Below are positions 4,709 to 22,047 of a stretch of DNA of 34,495 nt, piece by piece. Position 1 is the stretch's first letter, and the number at the start of each line of letters is the position of its first letter. The DNA lies in assembly GCA_903912485.1 (NCBI GenBank), contig CAIWHR010000418.1:1-34495 (forward strand), written 5' to 3'. Origin of the DNA: an uncultured beta proteobacterium. Lineage in GTDB: Bacteria; Pseudomonadota; Gammaproteobacteria; Burkholderiales; Casimicrobiaceae. The translations under genes and the position numbers were made by a program. Under the pieces are notes generated by a model. It was not told the origin of the DNA. It was given only the letters and a program-made list of their open reading frames with translations, and ran no database searches.

Positions 4709-6523
4709 GTGGCTACCCACATCCCTGATCCGGCGGCGTCGTCAGCGGCCGCCCCGCCGGCAGGCGGCGCTCCGGCGCAGCGGCAGGACCGCCGCCTTCG
4801 CCTCGACGAAATCCTGACGCTGATGGTCGCCGACGGCCTGGTCGCGTCGGGCGACGCCGAGAAGTTCGGCAAGCTGCGTTCGTCGCGCGTCGAGCACCCG
4901 CTCGAGATCGTCGCCGAGCAGAAGTGGAAATCGCTCGTCCCGCCGCACCGGCTGCTGGGGCTCGAGTGGCTGGTCGAATGGCTCGCCGGCAAGCTCGGCG
5001 TCCGCTACCTGCACATCGATCCGCTCAAGATCGACCTCAACGCCGTCACGCAGTCGATGTCGAACGCGTACGCCGAGCGCTACCGGATCCTGCCGGTCGC
5101 CGTCACGCGGGAGAAGCTGACCGTCGCGACGTCCGAGCCCTTCGTCCGGTCGTGGGCCGACGAGCTCGCGCAGATGCTGCGCACGCGCGTCGAGCTGGTG
5201 TTCGCCAATCCCGCCGACATCAGGCGCTACCTCGGCGAGTTCTACAACCTCGCGCGGTCGATGAAGAAGGCGCAGGAGAACGCGCCCGGCGAAGTGTCGC
5301 TCGCGCGCAACTTCGAGCAGCTGGTCGCGCTGGGCGGCCAGCTCGACGCCAACGACAGCCACGTCATCCACATCGTCGACTGGCTGTGGCAGTACGCGTT
5401 CGAGCAGCGCGCTTCCGACATCCACGTCGAGCCGCGGCGCGACATGGGCGCCGTGCGGTTCCGGATCGACGGCATCCTGCACCAGGTGTACACGATTCCC
5501 ACGCCGGTGCTGATCGCGATGACGTCGCGGATCAAGCTGCTGGCGCGGATGGAGATCGTCGAGAAGCGCCGCCCGCAGGACGGGCGGATCAAGACGGTGA
5601 CGCCGGAAGGCGACGAGGTCGAGCTGCGGATCTCGACGATGCCGACCGCGTTCGGCGAGAAGCTGGTGATGCGCATCTTCAGCCGCGAGGTGCTGGTTCG
5701 CGACTTCAGCGAGCTCGGATTCTCGAGCGGCGACTGGGAGCGCTGGGAACAGATGACGCGGGAGCCGAACGGCGTCATCCTGGTCACCGGGCCCACCGGC
5801 TCCGGCAAGACGACCACGCTGTACTCGACGCTGAAGCAGCTGGCGACGCCGGAAGTCAACGTCTGCACCATCGAGGACCCGATCGAGATGATCGAGCCCG
5901 CGTTCAACCAGATGCAGGTGCAGCCGCTGATCGGCGTCGATTTCGCGCACGGCGTGCGCACGCTGCTGCGGCAGGACCCCGACATCATCATGGTCGGCGA
6001 GGTGCGCGACCGCGAGACCGCCGACATGGCGGTGCAGGCGGCGCTGACCGGCCACCTCGTGCTGTCGACGTTGCACACCAACGACGCGCCGACGGCAGTG
6101 ACGCGGATGCTCGACCTCGGCGTCCCCCGCTACCTCATCAACTCGACGCTGCTGGGCGTGATGGCGCAGCGGCTGGTGCGCACGCTGTGCCCGCACTGCA
6201 AGGCGCCCGCCGAGCCGCCCGACGACGACACCTGGCACGCGATCACCGCGCCGTGGCGCGCCGAGAAGCCCACGCAGGTCATGGGGCCCGTCGGCTGCCT
6301 CGAATGCCGGATGACCGGCTTCCTGGGACGCGTCGGGCTCTACGAGATCATGCTGATGTCGCCGGCGATCCGGAAGATCGTCGTCGGCGATTACGACGAC
6401 GCCAGGATCCGCGACCAGGCGTACAAGGACGGGATGAAGCCGCTGCGCGTCTCCGGGGCGATGAAGGTCGCCGCCGGCATCACGACCGCCGAGGAAGTGG
6501 TGAAGGTCGCTCCGCTCGGGTAG
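4709..6523 (+). CDS. GspE/PilB-family secretion/pilus assembly ATPase (orphan)
   Basis: A 604-residue AAA-like ATPase of the type II secretion/type IV pilus motor family, a cytoplasmic hexamer that drives pilin assembly. Seen in order: an N-terminal N1/N2 region (about 30-190, MshE/T2SSE-N like), the ASDIHVEP block (235-242), Walker A GPTGSGKTTT (361-370), Asp box TIEDPIE (388-394), Walker B DPDIIMVGEVRD (423-434), His box TGHLVLSTLHTND (447-459), and a zinc site of two CxxC pairs (Cys494/497, Cys530/533). The start is GTG at 4709, the first possible start giving the full N-domain; the ribosome site is weak. No pilin, GspF/PilC or secretin gene is nearby, so it works with partners encoded elsewhere or in another process. 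All catalytic residues are present. Confidence 0.88.
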   Translation: MATHIPDPAASSAAAPPAGGAPAQRQDRRLRLDEILTLMVADGLVASGDAEKFGKLRSSRVEHPLEIVAEQKWKSLVPPHRLLGLEWLVEWLAGKLGVRYLHIDPLKIDLNAVTQSMSNAYAERYRILPVAVTREKLTVATSEPFVRSWADELAQMLRTRVELVFANPADIRRYLGEFYNLARSMKKAQENAPGEVSLARNFEQLVALGGQLDANDSHVIHIVDWLWQYAFEQRASDIHVEPRRDMGAVRFRIDGILHQVYTIPTPVLIAMTSRIKLLARMEIVEKRRPQDGRIKTVTPEGDEVELRISTMPTAFGEKLVMRIFSREVLVRDFSELGFSSGDWERWEQMTREPNGVILVTGPTGSGKTTTLYSTLKQLATPEVNVCTIEDPIEMIEPAFNQMQVQPLIGVDFAHGVRTLLRQDPDIIMVGEVRDRETADMAVQAALTGHLVLSTLHTNDAPTAVTRMLDLGVPRYLINSTLLGVMAQRLVRTLCPHCKAPAEPPDDDTWHAITAPWRAEKPTQVMGPVGCLECRMTGFLGRVGLYEIMLMSPAIRKIVVGDYDDARIRDQAYKDGMKPLRVSGAMKVAAGITTAEEVVKVAPLG

Positions 6524-6603
6524 CGGCCGTGCAGCGCGGCCGGACGCGGTCCCCCGCCCGGTGCGCGCGGCCGCTTTTCCGGTATCGTATCCTGTCGCAA
6601 TTC

Positions 6604-6625
6604 AAAGGGGTCAGGCTTGAATTCA
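6604..6625. repeat. Possible short dispersed repeat (RAYT/REP-like) at the gshA start
   Basis: The stretch AAAGGGGTCAGGCTTGAATT followed by CA sits directly before the gshA ATG and contains the palindrome TTGAATTCAA. From memory, the string GGGGTCAGGCTTGAAT resembles short repeats found beside Y1/RAYT transposases in several proteobacteria. Only one copy is in this window, so repeat status cannot be shown from the sequence given. It also supplies the AAGGGG and CAGG elements that could serve as the gshA ribosome-binding site. Confidence 0.25.
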
Positions 6626-8206
6626 ATGGACAAGCGCCTGCGCGCACTCGCCCCCGGCGTTCTCGCAGGGCTGCTGCGCGGGATCGAGAAGGAAGGTCTG
6701 CGCGTGAAGCCGAACGGAATGCTCGCCGACACGCCGCATCCGCGAGCGCTGGGGTCGGCGCTGACGCACCCGCACATCACCACCGATTTCAGCGAGTCGC
6801 AGCTCGAGCTGATCACCGGTGTCCACGCCGACGTCGACGCCTGTCTTGCCGAGCTGACCGAGCTCCACCAGGTCGTGTACCGGCAGATCGGCGACGAAAT
6901 GCTCTGGTGCGCGAGCATGCCGTGCTGGCTGCCGGCGGAGGACGACATTCCGCTGGGGCAGTACGGAAGCTCGAACGTCGCCCGGCTCAAGACCGCGTAC
7001 CGCCAGGGGCTGGCGCACCGCTACGGCCGGCGGATGCAGACGATTTCCGGGATCCACTACAACTTCTCGCTGCCCGACGAGGCGTGGCCGACGCTCCAGG
7101 CCGCCGACGCCGACGCGGGCGACGCGGGCGCATACCAGGACCGCGGCTACTTCGCGCTGATCCGCAACTTCCGGCGCCATTCGTGGCTGCTGCTGGTGCT
7201 GTTCGGCTCGTCTCCCGCGGTGTGCGGAACGTTCGTCGGCGAGCACCCGCACACGCTGACCGCGTGGGACACGGGAACGCTGATCGCGCCGTACGGGACG
7301 TCGCTGCGCATGGGGCGGCTGGGCTACCAGAGCGACGCGCAGGCTTCGCTGGCGGTGAGCTTCAACAGCCTCGGCGGCTATGCGAGGGCGCTCGAGCGTT
7401 CGCTGACCGAGCCCTATCCGCCCTACGAGGCGATCGGCGTCTTCGACGGCACCGGCTATCGGCAGCTCGCGACGACGCTGCTGCAGATCGAAAGCGAGTT
7501 CTACGGGACGATCCGGCCGAAGCGGCGCATCCGTCCGGGCGAGCGGCCGCTGCGCGCGCTCGGCGAGCGCGGCGTCGAGTACGTCGAGGTCCGCTGCGTC
7601 GACATCGATCCCTTCCATCCGCTCGGCATCGACGCCGACGAGATCCGGTTCATGGACATCTTCCTGCTCCACTGCCTGCTGCAGGACAGCCCCGACGATT
7701 CGCCGCCGGAAATCGCCGCGATGGCGCGCAACCAGCACCTTGCTGCCGAACGCGGCCGCGACCCGGAGCTTCGGCTTGACCGCGACGGCGCTCGGATCGC
7801 GCCGGCCGAATGGGGCGCCTCGCTGCTGCGCGAATGCGAACCCATCGCCGCGGCGCTCGACGACGCGCACGGCGGCACGGCGTATCGCAGCGTGCTGTCC
7901 GCCGCCGCGGACGCGCTGCGCGACGCGGCGGCGCTACCCTCGGCGCGTGTTCTCCGCGCGACCGAACGGGACTGCGGCAGGTCGTTCCCGCGCTTCGCGC
8001 TGGCGCACTCCGAGCGTCACCGGCGCGCGCTGCTCGACCTCCCGCTTCCGGCGGCGGCGGCGGCGCGTTACGCAAGAATGGCCGACGAATCGCTGGCCGC
8101 GCAGCGCGACATCGAGGCGGCGGATACCGTTGCCTTCGAAGTGCATCGCCAGCGCTACCTGGCGCAGGATCTGCTCGGCGGCGCCCATTTCCGGGCGCCG
8201 GGCTGA
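6626..8206 (+). CDS. gshA: Glutamate-cysteine ligase, type 1
   Basis: A 526-residue ATP-dependent enzyme joining L-glutamate and L-cysteine, the first committed step of glutathione synthesis in the cytoplasm. Seen: GIEKEGLRV near the N-terminus, ALGSALTHPHITTDFSESQLELITG (long block; key parts ALGSALTH and TDFSE), SMPCWLP, QYGSSN, QTISGIHYNFSLP, SLRMGRLGYQS, IRPKRRIR, GVEYVEVRCVDIDPF and the C-terminal ERE/AADT region. These follow the E. coli-type GshA order, and the length matches it (518). The in-frame TTG at 6617 is an alternative start three codons upstream with AAGGGG six bases before it; I prefer the ATG at 6626. gshB is not in the window. The gene may be read from its own promoter in the 100 bp after the GspE-like gene. 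Confidence 0.93.
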   Translation: MDKRLRALAPGVLAGLLRGIEKEGLRVKPNGMLADTPHPRALGSALTHPHITTDFSESQLELITGVHADVDACLAELTELHQVVYRQIGDEMLWCASMPCWLPAEDDIPLGQYGSSNVARLKTAYRQGLAHRYGRRMQTISGIHYNFSLPDEAWPTLQAADADAGDAGAYQDRGYFALIRNFRRHSWLLLVLFGSSPAVCGTFVGEHPHTLTAWDTGTLIAPYGTSLRMGRLGYQSDAQASLAVSFNSLGGYARALERSLTEPYPPYEAIGVFDGTGYRQLATTLLQIESEFYGTIRPKRRIRPGERPLRALGERGVEYVEVRCVDIDPFHPLGIDADEIRFMDIFLLHCLLQDSPDDSPPEIAAMARNQHLAAERGRDPELRLDRDGARIAPAEWGASLLRECEPIAAALDDAHGGTAYRSVLSAAADALRDAAALPSARVLRATERDCGRSFPRFALAHSERHRRALLDLPLPAAAAARYARMADESLAAQRDIEAADTVAFEVHRQRYLAQDLLGGAHFRAPG

Positions 8207-8268
8207 CGATCACCGAACCGGGGGTGCGGGATCGGGCCGGCCCTGCGCGGCCGCCGGCGCCGCAGCGT

Positions 8269-8898
8269 TCAGGGTTTCAGGCGCCCGAACCACTTCCGGT
8301 CGTCGTTGCTGAGGTGCATGGCGATGACGTCGTGCGTGAGGATGGAGACCAGCTCGCTGTCCCCCGCCGCGCCTTCGCGGTATTGCGCGAACGCCGCCGA
8401 GGCCTTCACGCGCAGCTCCCGGTGGGACGCCGCGTGGGCCAGCGCAAGCGCAGGGCTGTTCGTCCGCAGAAGGCTCTCCTCGCTGCGGAAATGATGGTCG
8501 ACGTCGTCGCTCAACGTGGCGAGCAGATGCAGGATATCCTCCCGCGATTGCCCGGTCCGCACCGCCTCGACTATCGTCTTGGCGGCCGCGAGCAGCGCGC
8601 GGTGCTGCGCGTCGATGACCGGATGGCCGCACACATACTCGGCACGCCAGGCGAAATCGCCGGACACGGGCCGGCCGCTGCGGGGCAGACGGCCGGTCAC
8701 CGTCGACGGTCCGTTGCGACCGGTGCTCCGGTACGCCTTGCGCATCGTCCACACGGTGGCGCCGGCCGAAACCAGCATCAGCCCGCTGAAAAAGGCCATC
8801 GCGTTCTGGAGGACGAGCATGGTGGCCAGACCGGATGTCATGTAGACATACGGAAGAATGTCGTACAACCACTTGGGCTTGTTCCCGTTGAACCACAT
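8269..8898 (-). CDS. Membrane-anchored bacteriohemerythrin
   Basis: A 209-residue protein with two hydrophobic segments near the N-terminus (about residues 13-30 and 33-50), a basic linker, and a hemerythrin domain at about 82-205. The di-iron O2-binding ligands can be placed: DAQH (His99), HHFRSEE (His136, Glu140), HAASHREL (His155, His159) and HLSND (His195, Asp199), so the site looks complete. Hemerythrins bind O2 at a non-heme di-iron centre for storage, delivery or sensing, and a membrane anchor suggests supply of O2 to a membrane oxidase or O2 sensing. The start at 8896-8898 has GGAGG five to six bases upstream, and a stable hairpin lies just upstream in the leader. It lies downstream of the lipoprotein gene on the same strand and is convergent with gshA. 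Confidence 0.88.
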   Translation of the reverse strand: MWFNGNKPKWLYDILPYVYMTSGLATMLVLQNAMAFFSGLMLVSAGATVWTMRKAYRSTGRNGPSTVTGRLPRSGRPVSGDFAWRAEYVCGHPVIDAQHRALLAAAKTIVEAVRTGQSREDILHLLATLSDDVDHHFRSEESLLRTNSPALALAHAASHRELRVKASAAFAQYREGAAGDSELVSILTHDVIAMHLSNDDRKWFGRLKP

Positions 8899-8923
8899 GG
8901 CATCCTCCGACCGCGCTCGATGG

Positions 8924-8960
8924 GCGCGTCGATCCTGCGGTTCCTGCAGGACCGACGCGC
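8924..8960 (-). promoter_or_regulatory. Strong hairpin in the bacteriohemerythrin leader
   Basis: Inverted arms GCGCGTCG/CGACGCGC (8924-8931 and 8953-8960) and TCCTGC/GCAGGA (8933-8938 and 8946-8951) form a 14-bp stem with one A-C mismatch and a 7-nt loop. It lies 25 bases before the hemerythrin ATG. A second small inverted repeat (CCGCGAT-CGAT-ATCGCGG) follows at about 8960-8977. No T-run follows on the minus strand, so it is not a standard terminator for the upstream lipoprotein gene. A leader structure or processing site is more likely. Confidence 0.5.
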
Positions 8961-9065
8961 CGCGATCGATATCGCGGGAGTCTGCACCACGCGGCCGGCC
9001 TTGCCAAGCGCTGCGCGACAGCGCTCAGGCAGCGCTGCCGGGCGGGGGCGCCGCCGGAGCGAAAA

Positions 9066-10724
9066 TCACCGCAGATAAAGCGGCATCTGGGTGAAGACGC
9101 CGTCGACCCGGTCGGGCACGTTGCGGAGTTTCTGCCAAGACCACGACGAGGTGCTCCAGACGAACGGCTGCCCGGCCACCTTGGGCGTTCCGAACAGCAT
9201 CCAGAAGCCGAGCCCCGCCGGCGAGACATCCAGCGTGCCGGACAGCTTCATGAAATCGCGGACCATGGCGCCGGAGGCGACCTTGGCGTCGACCGAACCG
9301 TCGGGAATCTGCTTGGGGAAGGGCGTCTCGCCGTAGCCGAGATCCCAGCGTCCGAAGATGGACAGCGGATTGGCGGGATCGGTGTAGGTGATGACCGCCT
9401 TGGCCTGTTCGACGTCGTTCACGCCGGGCAGCAGCTTCTTGAACTGCTGGCGCCTGGCCGGGCGGTTGTCGGTGGACCCCAGGTCCTGCACGACCTGGTA
9501 GGACGCCGGGTAGTTGATCCCCATCAGGTAGCTCGGGGTCACCAATTCCGGGTCGTAGTCGGTCGAGCAGGTGCCTCCGGCCGTCGCCTTGGCGGTGACC
9601 GAGTACGGCCCGCCGGTCGAACGATAGAAGATGAAGCAGCGATCCGACATCTCCACCAGGCCGGTCTCGCTGTTCTTCACGTCGACCACCATGTAGCCGT
9701 TGAGGTAGGTGCCGCTGTTGTCCAGCGAGATGTAATTGAAGAATTCGGTGATCGAGGCGGCGAACTGCTCGGCCAGCGACGCGCGCCAGAACATCCACAG
9801 CCCGCTTGCGTTGGTGTTGCTGTGCTCCAGGCGATGCGTCGTTTCGTTGAACATCATCCCCTTGTTGTTGTAGCCGAAGTCGGTGGCCGACCCGATCTGT
9901 CCGGGCGTCGGGGTGTTCATCGTGATCAGGTCGCCGTTCACCGCCAGCGTCTGCGTCATGGTCTGCGACAGGAACCCCATCCAGCTGTTGTGCGTCAGGA
10001 TGATGTCGTTCGCGGTCCGCTTCACGAAGGCCGAGCACTTGTCGGCGCGATCGCCCGGCAACGGCGCGCCGAGTTCGGGAGAGTACGAGATCACGTACGT
10101 CAGGTCGTTGTAGGCGTTGATGAAATAGACGTCCATGAAGCTCGGCTTGGCGGTCTCGTAGCCCAGCGTCAGTTCAGCGGGCGTCAGGTAGCTGCCGTCG
10201 GGCAGCCAGGCCCCGGAGAAGTCGAGGCCCTGCGGCTGGTCCAGCGTCGCGCCGTGGTAGATCCCGAGCATCCGGAACAGCAGCCGCTTCAGACGAGCGG
10301 CGACCACCGGATCGGTCGCCGGCGCTTTCAGGTACTGCAGGAAGGCGCCGTAGTTGATCGCCAGGATGCCCGCGGCCTTCTGCAGTTCCGCCTGCGTCGG
10401 CCCCGGCTGCTGGGGAAAGCTGTGCTCCGGATCGGTCAGGTAGCTGTTGTCCCAGGTGTTGTCGCGGGCAGCGGCGATCGTCCCGCCCTGGAGCTTGCCC
10501 TGGACGAAACCGGCGCGGTATTCGGCCTTCAGGTCGTTCGCGTCGCGGGAGGCGACGGTCATGTTCAGGATGTTGTTACGGGTCTCGATCACGCCGGAGG
10601 CATTGGCGTCGAGGGAGTAGCTGACCAGGTTGTCGGCCGGCGTGTCGCCGCCTCCGCCTCCGCACGCCGACAGCGCCGCCAGCAAGCCGAAACCACCGAT
10701 CAATAGCCAGAACCGTTTGGTCAT
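9066..10724 (-). CDS. Lipoprotein resembling phospholipase B-like Ntn hydrolases
   Basis: A 552-residue lipoprotein. The start ATG at 10722-10724 is preceded by GAGGAGAACCTC, a strong ribosome site, and is preferred over the ATG six codons upstream. The signal peptide ends in the lipobox LSAC (Cys21) followed by a Gly run. Seen further on: KCSAFVKR (Cys230), then ILTHNSW, then PGQIGSATDF and MMFNETTHR. This order (Cys nucleophile, H-N/S-x-W, S-x-PG...DF, TT) recalls phospholipase B-like proteins (PLBD family), in which the Cys becomes the N-terminal nucleophile after self-cleavage. Assignment is by eye and moderate. Mature location would be the outer membrane or periplasm and the substrate is unknown. 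An FNR-type box lies upstream and bacteriohemerythrin is the next gene on the same strand. The alternative is an unclassified lipoprotein. Confidence 0.65.
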   Translation of the reverse strand: MTKRFWLLIGGFGLLAALSACGGGGGDTPADNLVSYSLDANASGVIETRNNILNMTVASRDANDLKAEYRAGFVQGKLQGGTIAAARDNTWDNSYLTDPEHSFPQQPGPTQAELQKAAGILAINYGAFLQYLKAPATDPVVAARLKRLLFRMLGIYHGATLDQPQGLDFSGAWLPDGSYLTPAELTLGYETAKPSFMDVYFINAYNDLTYVISYSPELGAPLPGDRADKCSAFVKRTANDIILTHNSWMGFLSQTMTQTLAVNGDLITMNTPTPGQIGSATDFGYNNKGMMFNETTHRLEHSNTNASGLWMFWRASLAEQFAASITEFFNYISLDNSGTYLNGYMVVDVKNSETGLVEMSDRCFIFYRSTGGPYSVTAKATAGGTCSTDYDPELVTPSYLMGINYPASYQVVQDLGSTDNRPARRQQFKKLLPGVNDVEQAKAVITYTDPANPLSIFGRWDLGYGETPFPKQIPDGSVDAKVASGAMVRDFMKLSGTLDVSPAGLGFWMLFGTPKVAGQPFVWSTSSWSWQKLRNVPDRVDGVFTQMPLYLR

Positions 10725-10804
10725 GAGGTTCTCCTCAATCATCCGCGAATTCCCGGAGCGGCGCCGGCCCGGTCAGGGCGAGCACTCCTGGAGACAGCCA
10801 TTTC

Positions 10805-15964: not shown

Positions 15965-16090
15965 GATGGCGCAGGTCCTCGACTTGAAGCCGCCGGCGAG
16001 TGGCGGCGGTTGACCGGCACGACGGTGCCCCGGATACTCCGGCTCGCGTGACCTGGACACGTGTTCGTTCCCGCGGGAGGAAGCGACTTG

Positions 16091-16459
16091 GTGGGTGCCC
16101 GTGGCCTGGATGCGTTCACGCTCAAGATTGTGGCCCTCGCCGCCATGACCGTCGATCACGTCGGCGCTCTGCTCTATCCCGAGGCGCTCTGGCTGCGGGT
16201 CATCGGCAGGCTGGCCATGCCGATCATCGCTTTCCTCCTGCTCGTGGTCGTGAGCGCGCTGGTCTTCGTCGGCGTGAGTGCCGGGACCGGCGACAACAGC
16301 TATGCGGTCATCAACGCCATCAACCTGGGCTGCGCATTGGCGCTTCCGCTCCTCCGCGGCTACGACGGCCGGCGCGGACGCGACTTCCGATACTTCTTCT
16401 ATGCGTACTATCCCGCTCACCTGCTCGCGCTGTGCGCGATCAGGGCGCTCTGGTTCTGA
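16091..16459 (+). CDS. Short TraX-like membrane protein
   Basis: About 122 residues from the GTG at 16091, chosen because GGAGGA lies nine bases upstream; a GTG at 16061 in the same frame lacks such a site. The N-terminal block [22 protein letters not shown] and the following [16 protein letters not shown] match the TraX family (TraX acetylates F pilin), as does the C-terminal [15 protein letters not shown]. Full TraX proteins are nearly twice as long with more membrane helices. Here the middle part of the family appears to be absent, with block one running straight into a helix ([11 protein letters not shown]) and the C-terminal block. It is either an internally deleted derivative or a naturally compact form. 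It lies 67 bp before the ubiquitin-like gene on the same strand. Confidence 0.6.
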
Positions 16460-16526: not shown

Positions 16527-17009
16527 ATGCCGACAGCCCAGCCATGCAGATGCGCGCCTGAAGCGCAGGATCGAAGCGCCGACCATCGGTCGCGCCGACT
16601 CCCCCGGCTGCTCCTTGCCTGCGTCGCGGTCGTCGCCATGCTGCTGCCGCTCGCCGCCTCGGCGTCCGGGATGCAGATGTTCGTCAAGACCATGACCGGC
16701 AGCACGATCACTCTCGACGTCGACGAAAGCGACACCATCGCGACCGTCAAGGCGAAGATTCAGGAGAAGGAAGGCATTCCTCCCGATCGGCAGACGCTGA
16801 TCTTTGCCGGCGAGGTGCTCGTGGACAATCGCACGCTCGCCGACTACAACATCCAGAAGGAATCGACGCTGCATCTCGTCGTCATTCCGCTGGCTCAGCC
16901 GGTTCCTGCCCTGGGCGGGCTGGGTGCCGCGGGCGCGGCCCTGCTGCTCCTTCTGGCCGGTTTCGGCCGCCTGCGATGGCGGCCCGGAATGCCTCCGCGC
17001 GGCAGTTAG
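16527..17009 (+). CDS. Secreted ubiquitin-like protein with C-terminal sorting-type tail
   Basis: A 160-residue protein. Residues 1-46 form a Sec signal peptide (RR-rich n-region, hydrophobic [16 protein letters not shown], cleavage after ASA). Residues 49-118 align without gaps to ubiquitin residues 1-70, about 54 of 70 identical by eye against the eukaryotic sequence I remember: for example [32 protein letters not shown] and [13 protein letters not shown]. Lys6, 27, 29, 33 and 63, Ile44 and Val70 are kept; Lys11 is Ser, Lys48 is Glu and Leu8 is Met. The RLRGG tail used in conjugation is missing. Instead [13 protein letters not shown] leads into a hydrophobic helix and an RLRWR basic end, an IPTL/PEP-CTERM-like arrangement read by exosortase-type systems. 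I infer an exported, envelope-anchored or released ubiquitin fold. No E1/E2/E3-like genes or protease are nearby. Confidence 0.85.
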
Positions 17010-18645
17010 CATCGGCTGAGCGGTCGCGCCCCTCCCGACCCCCTCAGGCTATCGGGGGAGCGATCGGCGACGACGGCGCCGTTCCGATCGGGCGCCGTGC
17101 CGTCGCTCGCCGTCGCACGCCCGACCCGGTCGAGCCAGATCGTCACCTCGGTGCCGGCGCCGGGCGCACTGCGGACGTCGATGCGACCGCGGTGGAGGTC
17201 GACGATCTCCTTGGCGATGCACATTCCGAGTCCGATCCCCGGGAGCTTGCCGGAGATGTCGCCACGGTAGAAGCGCTCGAAGCAGCGCGCCTGCTGCTCG
17301 GGGGTCATGCCGATGCCGCGGTCGCGAATCCCGATGCCGACCCTGCGCGCGCCGTCGTCGGCCACCGCACGGCAGGAAACGGTCACTTCGCCGCCTTCGG
17401 GCGAGCACCTGTACGCATTCGCCAGCAGGTGGGTGACGGCGAGCTGAATCCTCGCCCGGTCCGCGCTCACCCACAGCGGCGCCTCGGGCAGCAGCACCAC
17501 GGGAGGCTCGCGGCCGTCGGGCAATTCGCAGGCCGATGCCGCGCCGGCCGCCGCTTCGGCCAGGTTCATCGTCTCGAACGCGAAGTCTCGGCCCCGACGC
17601 GCGTCGAGCTCGACCAGTTCGACGAGTTCGTCGATGATCGACGCCAGAACCTTCGCCTGGCGATGCGCCGTGGCCAGCAGCTCGCGGCCCTGCTCGCGGT
17701 CGAGTTCGTGCGTCAGCAGGAGTTCGGTGAAGCCCATGACGCTCGTCATCGGCGTGCGCAGCTCATGCGCCGCCACCACCATGAATTCGCCCTTCAGCCG
17801 GGCGACCTCGATCTCGTGGCTGACGTCGTGGAGGTAGAGCACCTGCGACACGGTGCCGGCGTCGCCCTGCCGCAGCCTGACCTCGAGCACACGGCCCGGG
17901 GGGCGCGCCAACTCGATCAATTCGCGGTCGGCTTCGGCGCGTCCCGGCGGCGGCAGGCGTGATGCCAGCGCGTGGATGCCGCGGAAGCGGGCCGACGCAA
18001 CGCACAGGTCCGCCAGCCGTTCCGAGAACGCGGCTTCGTCGTGCCCGATCACCGCGTCTTCGGCCAGCCCGGTCATGCCCGAGAACGACGGAGAGACGTC
18101 GCTGACCCGGCGGTCGCGACCGAAGGAGACGAAGCCGTCCGGCGACAGTGCGAAGATGGCGTCGAGCTGCTGCACGCGATCGGTCAGCTGCGCCGTGCGC
18201 TCGGCGACCGTCTGCTGCAGCTCGTCGCGCTGCGCCTCGACCTTCCTGCGCAGATGCTCGCGCTCGAGGAGGTTGCGGAGCCTCTGCCGCGCGACGTCGG
18301 CGTTGATCGGCTTGGTGATGTAGTCGACGGCGCCCAGAGCGAGGCCGGCGCTTTCGGCGCCGCTCTCGGTGAGAGCGGTGACGAAGACCGCCGGGATGTC
18401 GCGCAGCCGGGGGTCGGCCTTGAGCCGGCGGCAGGTCTCGTAACCGTCCATTTCCGGCATCATCACGTCGAGCAGGATGAGGTCGGGCGGCGTGGCTTCC
18501 GCCAGCGCCAGGCCCATCGCGCCCGAGGTGGCGATTCGAAGATCGAACTCGGATGCCAGCGCAGCCCCCAGCGTCAGCAGATTTTCCGGCGTGTCGTCGA
18601 TCGCCAGAATGTTGGGTCTCGGCCCGATCCCTGGATCCGCAGCGG

Positions 18646-18649
<4 letters not shown>
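17006..18649 (-). CDS. Response-receiver/PAS histidine kinase (REC-PAS-HisKA-HATPase)
   Basis: A 547-residue cytoplasmic kinase with no membrane segment. Seen: an N-terminal receiver (about 10-130, phosphoacceptor Asp61 in LILLDVMMP, Thr91 and Lys113), a coiled-coil linker (about 132-160), a PAS-like domain (about 160-280), HisKA with AAHELRTP (His295), and HATPase_c with N-box LLANAY (Asn411), DRGIG (443-447) and GIGLGM (471-476). The start ATG at 18647-18649 has GGAGGAGAGCGC upstream and overlaps the preceding kinase gene by 4 bp (ATGA), so the two are coupled. The receiver could take a phosphoryl group from the upstream hybrid kinase, making a relay in which this protein is both target and kinase. 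Its stop overlaps that of the convergent ubiquitin-like gene. Confidence 0.88.

Positions 18650-22047
<3,398 letters not shown>

Follow-up and report, generated by a model that had tools for sequence, protein, structure and literature searches.

An uncultured beta proteobacterium of the Casimicrobiaceae (Burkholderiales) carries, on contig CAIWHR010000418.1, a gene in which a ubiquitin domain is joined to a predicted export signal and to a C-terminal tail of sorting type. The whole stretch of DNA that was analysed, 34,495 nucleotides long, is called the window in the following. The features of the locus, with the evidence for each given in brackets, are:

16010..16038, plus strand: promoter-like site (a match to the consensus at 9/12 and no more), 22 bases upstream of the TraX-like start (scan: 1 found against 0.1 expected in shuffles)
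16061..16459, plus strand: TraX-like membrane protein, 67 bases upstream of the ubiquitin start and possibly co-transcribed with it (Pfam; shorter than the model)
16527..17009, plus strand: intact gene for a predicted exported ubiquitin with a sorting tail, 160 aa (ORF and Pfam profile search)
16527..16664, plus strand: predicted signal peptide, residues 1-46, with a predicted signal peptidase I cut after A-S-A at 44-46 (sequence, hydropathy)
16671..16883, plus strand: ubiquitin domain, residues 49-119, corresponding to ubiquitin positions 1-71 (Pfam, human alignment, AlphaFold, Foldseek)
16884..16901, plus strand: six-residue linker IPLAQP, which replaces RLRGG (sequence, alignment with relatives)
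16902..16982, plus strand: divergent IPTL-CTERM-like sorting tail, residues 126-152, composed of VPALG, a hydrophobic stretch and RLRWR (hydropathy, own-genome matrix)
17006..19096, minus strand: convergent response-regulator/histidine-kinase gene, its last 4 bases shared with the end of the ubiquitin gene (ORF and Pfam)

Residues 52-119 match the Pfam ubiquitin profile (PF00240) with 100 bits (E 6e-29; cut-off 25.4), a score that rules out chance for the domain, and the model has the ubiquitin fold, with block-mean AlphaFold pLDDT values of 94-97 over residues 51-120 and a solved ubiquitin as the best Foldseek match (target TM 0.97). The score above the curated cut-off and the fold together place the protein in the ubiquitin family, and its ORF is the sole Pfam-ubiquitin match in the genome. 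Met49 corresponds to ubiquitin M1, and 54 of the 71 positions in residues 49-119 are identical to those of human ubiquitin (76%). The profile search of 16527-17009 and the structure prediction thus bear out the original prediction, which was made from the letters alone and spoke of a eukaryotic-type ubiquitin with about three-quarters identity. The alignment likewise agrees with its list of lost residues (Lys11 and Lys48, by K11S and K48E) and of kept ones (Lys63, Ile44 and Val70); H68 is kept as well, and further changes relative to human ubiquitin are L8M, R42T, Q49V and E51V.

The C-terminal end of ubiquitin is where the window protein departs most from a conjugatable form: R72, R74, G75 and G76 are all missing, positions 72-76 reading IPLAQ in place of RLRGG, which agrees with the predicted absence of a di-glycine at the conjugation position. 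The RLRGG junction at which deubiquitinases cleave ubiquitin-extension effectors is absent as well, there being no GG at 75-76. Since this end is lost, conjugation is ruled out for the protein as it is encoded, and the claim that the locus is not a protein-tagging system stands. The further suggestion that processing might expose the Gly-Gly of PALGG (residues 130-131) fared worse, as this Gly-Gly lies inside the sorting motif and is not kept by most aligned relatives, so that it looks incidental.

Upstream of the domain, residues 28-46 form a hydrophobic segment (mean Kyte-Doolittle 2.54) that ends A-S-A and is followed by S-G and Met1; in the predicted structure of the window protein, a helix lies at residues 24-43. 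Sequence and hydropathy thus point to an export signal just before ubiquitin Met1, as in the secreted ubiquitin BfUbb (see below), and uphold the predicted Sec signal peptide.

The promoter-like site before the TraX-like gene suggests that this gene and the ubiquitin gene may share a transcript. The TraX-like protein (132 aa) matches its 217-position model in two pieces, and its middle is ~90-100 residues shorter than that of a homologue in the locus L038. The convergent response-regulator/histidine-kinase gene probably has no share in the device. Farther neighbours in the window encode CorA, NAPRTase, a type II/IV secretion ATPase, glutamate-cysteine ligase and an MtrC/MtrF-like cytochrome, and the expectation that the flanking genes are bacterial was confirmed on both sides. 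The protein encoded at 9066-10742 on the minus strand begins like a lipoprotein and matches the Pfam phospholipase B family (E 2e-16), which is mainly eukaryotic. The GC fraction is 0.667 for the ubiquitin gene, 0.577 for the ubiquitin domain alone and 0.688 for the window; the codon scores of 12 window genes span a range that includes the score of the domain and lies just above that of the whole gene. The window copy does not lie on a recognisable phage.

The sorting tail and the exosortase XrtH

The claim of an IPTL/PEP-CTERM-like tail held in part. The curated IPTL-CTERM models (TIGR04174 / PF18203) matched neither the whole window protein nor its tail, which is absent from the 12 IPTL-CTERM model matches in the genome. 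When likeness to the genome's own tails was examined, an HMM made from six of them counted against the assignment, leaving the window tail unlisted and ranking that of the relative L099 55th, whereas a position matrix recovered it. This matrix, with 27 ungapped columns, was derived from seven of the 12 IPTL-CTERM tails in the genome, none of them from a ubiquitin protein, and was run over 1627 distinct ORF C-termini of the examined loci (spurious ORFs in, tail-source loci out). The window tail ranked 4th of the 1627 with a score of 21.3; the top eight were all ubiquitin proteins (in order L110, L057, L101, window, L102, L103, L109 and L048), and the best non-ubiquitin tail came ninth with a score of 0.8. 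None of 5000 shuffles of the window tail, with register free, reached its score, and the L099 tail was recovered by the ungapped matrix, unlike its rank in the six-tail HMM. The tails of L098, L048, L057, L110 and the phage contig L119 pass the Pfam IPTL-CTERM model, and those of L099 and L100 stay below its cut-off. From its sequence, we read the window tail as a divergent IPTL-CTERM tail.

The exosortase that would be expected beside such a tail gave a similarly divided result, so that the outcome was mixed for both conditions, a tail unlike any CTERM model and a genome without exosortase, which the original prediction had named as refuting it. Neither XrtH (TIGR04177) nor a Pfam exosortase was found in the window's assembly, a metagenome-assembled genome (MAG) of 644 contigs, whereas XrtH scored above its cut-off in 3/3 other genomes of the same genus. 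In a survey of 150 genomes of the order, an IPTL-CTERM match occurred in 12 and three or more matches in six; XrtH was above cut-off in five of the 150, all of them among these six, the sole exception being the window's MAG, and ten weaker XrtH matches were found elsewhere among the 150 genomes. XrtH is likely missing from the assembly through an assembly gap.

Relatives in cellular genomes and on phage contigs

A scan of 84,980 species genomes yielded 204 relatives, the best 80 of which were kept, so that the set leans to the most query-like. Their loci, together with L097-L100, L110 and the window, gave 88 ubiquitin ORFs in 86 loci. A hydrophobic segment lies within 60 residues upstream of ubiquitin in 83 of the 88, often ending A-x-A at Met1 (the five ORFs without it are L053, L068, L082, L093 and L098). 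Position 72 is Arg in 60/88, and a complete RLRGG is found in 8/88. The C-terminal modules comprise dockerin (16/88), autotransporter (7/88), Pfam IPTL-CTERM (4/88) and SLH (3/88, with E up to 0.01). Eleven phyla occur among the tree labels and exported forms in ten of them, one being archaeal and several being represented by single MAGs; Nitrospirota was left out of the ten, as its one row has no signal peptide. Because most carriers are MAGs, single cases may be mis-binned; those that are isolates by title include Ruminococcus albus, Hoeflea marina, Leeia oryzae and Neptunomonas antarctica, and one of three records in the plasmid collection is the Ruminococcus albus 7 gene annotated as 'ubiquitin family protein'. 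Carriage above the Pfam cut-off is patchy, with 2/369 genomes in the class, 4/399 in the order, 5/64 in the family and 1/4 in the genus, and 2/398 in the phylum sample, one of these two being weak.

No gene context common to all was found when the neighbours of seven loci were compared. TraX-like homology was confined to L038 among the compared loci, ~1.9 kb from ubiquitin and possibly by chance; this complete Verrucomicrobia genome has two adjacent exported ubiquitin genes (4989-6768 and 8672-9328) with the TraX homologue nearby. The locus L094, from an order-mate, matches that of Leeia oryzae (L085) over the compared stretch, with equal ORF lengths. In a Brevundimonas MAG (L057), a ubiquitin-IPTL-CTERM gene lies ~0.5 kb from an integrase gene. 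The exported ubiquitin at L033:4968-5288 ends exactly in RLRGG, as does L122:4811-5137, encoded on a predicted phage contig with tail and baseplate genes; judging from their sequences, these two may present a free end of conjugation type outside the cytosol. At L068:3167-3580, in a Verrucomicrobiaceae MAG, ubiquitin with RLRGG is followed by a haem-motif stretch (CAQCH); this ubiquitin may be eukaryotic contamination.

A search of 2.9 million viral contigs (IMG/VR) placed ubiquitin relatives on 12 distinct contigs, seven of which encode the exported form; in four others a signal peptide is not clear, two of these being low-GC polyubiquitins, and one more is a weak match. Phage genes were scanned on six of the seven exported-form contigs (L127 was left out), and all six are predicted phage contigs with terminase, portal, head, baseplate or tape-measure genes. 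Three of them (L119, L120 and L121) have the design of signal peptide, ubiquitin and IPTL-CTERM tail, the L119 tail scoring 28.6 bits against the Pfam cut-off of 20.8, and in all three the ubiquitin gene (about 2382-2768 in L119) lies within ~0.7 kb before terminase, followed by portal and head or structural genes. The ubiquitin region is 99.5% alike in L119 and L120 and the terminases are different, a like cassette before differing packaging modules being what is expected of mosaic cargo. Near the L119 gene, a promoter scan found none, and a terminator-like site upstream is at about chance level; the GenBank phage collection held no match to the L119-type protein. Other anchors also occur on phage contigs: L126:10001-11446 is a ubiquitin-autotransporter gene between tail chaperone and tape-measure genes, and L125:8442-9383, on a contig with portal and terminase, encodes a ubiquitin protein with an autotransporter match just under the Pfam cut-off. 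The original prediction had held acquisition from a eukaryote followed by addition of export signals to be the simplest origin. With the combination of signal peptide and ubiquitin in ten phyla and on predicted phage contigs, this is not supported, as transfer between bacteria or via phage is at least as simple.

Closest to the window by taxonomy are four relatives from its own family (L097-L100), all with ubiquitin followed by a VPA- or VPT-type tail and with a domain identity to human ubiquitin of 59-66%. In three of these four, ubiquitin is encoded immediately 3' of pntB and in the same orientation (L101:7734-11218, L103:7893-11478 and L109:3-904, by gene order), with a 1-base gap in L101 and an ATGA overlap in L103 and L109. 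The gene pntA is present in L101 and L103, and the L109 contig is cut inside pntB. No pntB was found in the stretches examined of the window and of the remaining family locus, L102, whose ubiquitin protein has the sorting tail and no visible signal peptide. Macro-domain and T2SSN-like genes lie near the latter, the T2SSN-like match being just under the Pfam cut-off, and the macro-domain gene is ~700 bases from the ubiquitin gene (6763-7287 and 7987-8316). As the PntB proteins of L101 and L103 are only 52% identical, the order of pntB and ubiquitin is either old or re-formed.

The loci L101 and L109, from two genomes of one genus, allowed rates to be compared. PntB had a dN of 0.008 and a dS of 0.41 (dN/dS 0.01-0.02), and the ubiquitin domain a dN of 0.31-0.32 and a dS of 0.59-0.62, with a dN/dS of 0.52 (bootstrap 0.26-1.02). 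When the domain was split by a list of core sites, dN/dS was 0.13 for the 22 core sites and 0.74 (0.30-1.81) for the 49 non-core sites, which suggests, for this one genome pair, that the fold is kept while the surface changes fast. Three other ORF pairs of the same stretch gave 0.15, 0.20 and 0.24; a fourth gave 1.39, probably in a wrong frame. The phylogeny of the ubiquitins that had been proposed was obtained (89 rows, 71 columns) and left most forks open; the four family relatives fall on one side of a branch (94/76) which the window row does not join, so that separate acquisition and fast change cannot be distinguished.

A proposed display outside the cell

Ubiquitin is usually seen as a eukaryotic intracellular protein tag. 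Its bacterial beta-grasp relatives, such as ThiS, MoaD, TtuB and the ubiquitin-like proteins of bacterial conjugation systems, are cytosolic proteins that work through a C-terminal GG and resemble ubiquitin far less in sequence. The closest known counterpart of the window protein is the secreted ubiquitin of Bacteroides fragilis (BfUbb, gene ubb), which has no terminal glycine and inhibits other B. fragilis strains (PMC5705921). Both proteins have a bacterial signal peptide before ubiquitin, no terminal Gly-Gly and a patchy presence; they differ in that mature BfUbb starts exactly at Met1, two residues after the cut predicted here, and in their identity to human ubiquitin, 63% for BfUbb and 76% over 71 residues for the window protein (PMC3352274, PMC5705921). 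BfUbb is released, and no sorting tail is described for it, whereas the window protein has the IPTL-CTERM-like one. BfUbb also has a C-terminal cysteine, glycosylation and a shown antibacterial activity. A 2024 paper reportedly names a BfUbb target. With the IPTL-CTERM/XrtH proteins (TIGR04174, PF18203, TIGR04177), the window protein shares the proline motif, the hydrophobic stretch and the C-terminal arginines, as well as a setting with 12 other such tails in the genome and XrtH in the genus; it differs in a tail too divergent for the curated cut-offs and in having ubiquitin as cargo. The secreted ubiquitin-extension effector of Globodera rostochiensis also combines a signal peptide, ubiquitin and a short C-terminal extension, but its 12-residue peptide is cleaved off in the plant (PMC5705921), whereas the window protein has a membrane tail and no GG junction.

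The reading that we favour, with a probability of about 0.55, is that the window gene makes a Sec-exported ubiquitin which undergoes IPTL-CTERM-like sorting, is displayed on the envelope and serves as a competition factor, as one of a scattered set of proteins with swapped parts. Signal peptidase would cut after ASA, the ubiquitin would fold in the periplasm, and the tail would be held in the inner membrane until XrtH cuts near VPAL, a step proposed because XrtH is coupled with such tails; the protein would then be passed to the cell surface or matrix. The gene would belong to the scattered exported bacterial ubiquitins, in which anchors are swapped and which would move between lineages, partly on phages. 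The last element, taken by itself, is doubtful: the displayed domain might contribute to antagonism or exclusion of related bacteria or phages, acting via its surface and not by conjugation. Such a role is favoured by analogy with BfUbb combined with phage carriage and fast surface change; the fast evolution was seen in one genome pair, and among the neighbours of the window gene, none was recognised as encoding a toxin, an immunity protein or a receptor.

Among the alternatives, mimicry survives best, unlikely as it is. As the original prediction suggested, the displayed ubiquitin would act as a mimic or decoy for those proteins of protists or other eukaryotic hosts that recognise ubiquitin; the window copy keeps I44, H68 and V70. 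In 57 non-redundant ORFs of 84, a set that excludes the four family relatives, mean identity to human is 0.85 for the Ile44 patch against 0.78 for a list of tolerant sites; judging by their titles, many relatives were sampled from rumen or gut, and the window also encodes the phospholipase B-like protein, of a family presumably mainly eukaryotic. Human E1 is bound in vitro by B. fragilis ubiquitin (PMC3352274). Against this, the window copy is without R42, K48, Q49 and R72, and the case for mimicry suffers from the eroded Ile44 patch of the four relatives in the family, which never have Leu at position 8 and have Y, V, F and F at position 44. Ubiquitin receptors, moreover, are cytosolic.

It is improbable that the protein is an envelope accessory, i.e., a stable periplasmic ubiquitin domain which, in this bacterial family, is made with the NAD(P) transhydrogenase and helps this complex or its surroundings. 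The position directly 3' of pntB in 3/4 same-family relatives would fit, as would an order that is old or re-formed at 52% PntB identity, but there is no pntB in the stretches examined around the window copy and L102, the ubiquitin diverges far faster than PntB, unlike a fitted subunit, and co-location may reflect co-expression alone. A decaying or neutral acquired domain, i.e., a very stable fold of little function which exported proteins tolerate, is improbable as well: it would agree with the patchy carriage in order, family and genus and with the non-core dN/dS in the one genome pair, but the core is constrained, the frame, the export signal (in 3/4) and the tail have been kept at 59-66% domain identity to human, and the repeated occurrence of the domain on phage contigs and with many anchors speaks for a use. 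An exported conjugating tag, with a Gly-Gly end after processing and extracellular ubiquitination, is barely credible, since the Gly-Gly at 130-131 and the RLRGG ends of L033 and L122 are outweighed by the loss of R72, R74, G75 and G76 in the window protein and by the position of the unconserved distal GG in the sorting motif. Eukaryotic contamination or a chimeric contig is just as hard to credit: the MAG is estimated to be 4.92% contaminated and the domain GC is below that of the window, but the neighbours on either side are bacterial, gene GC and domain codon use resemble the host, signal peptide and tail are of bacterial type, and same-family homologues exist, one on a 756-kb contig.

Secreted bacterial ubiquitin, in B. 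fragilis, and IPTL-CTERM sorting, as a named family, are already known. The open-access literature yielded no report of their union, nor was a report of the pntB linkage or of a phage-borne exported ubiquitin met there, neither of these two being searched by name. Extending the favoured reading of a sorted and displayed ubiquitin, it may tentatively be proposed that bacteria and phages share exported ubiquitin as a mobile module for surface display, with interchangeable anchors (IPTL-CTERM with XrtH sorting, autotransporter barrel, dockerin), a conserved fold and a diversifying face, used in phage exclusion or bacterial rivalry; in one family, it would have been drafted behind pntB and be sorted to the envelope by XrtH. 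Ubiquitins of exported type were met in loci of ten phyla and in predicted phages, and their C-terminal anchors are of three kinds or more. If the proposal is true, ubiquitin would have a second life as an extracellular bacterial module, its natural variants would reveal which faces matter once conjugation is gone, and phage cargo, exosortase sorting and ubiquitin would be linked in a way that can be tested.
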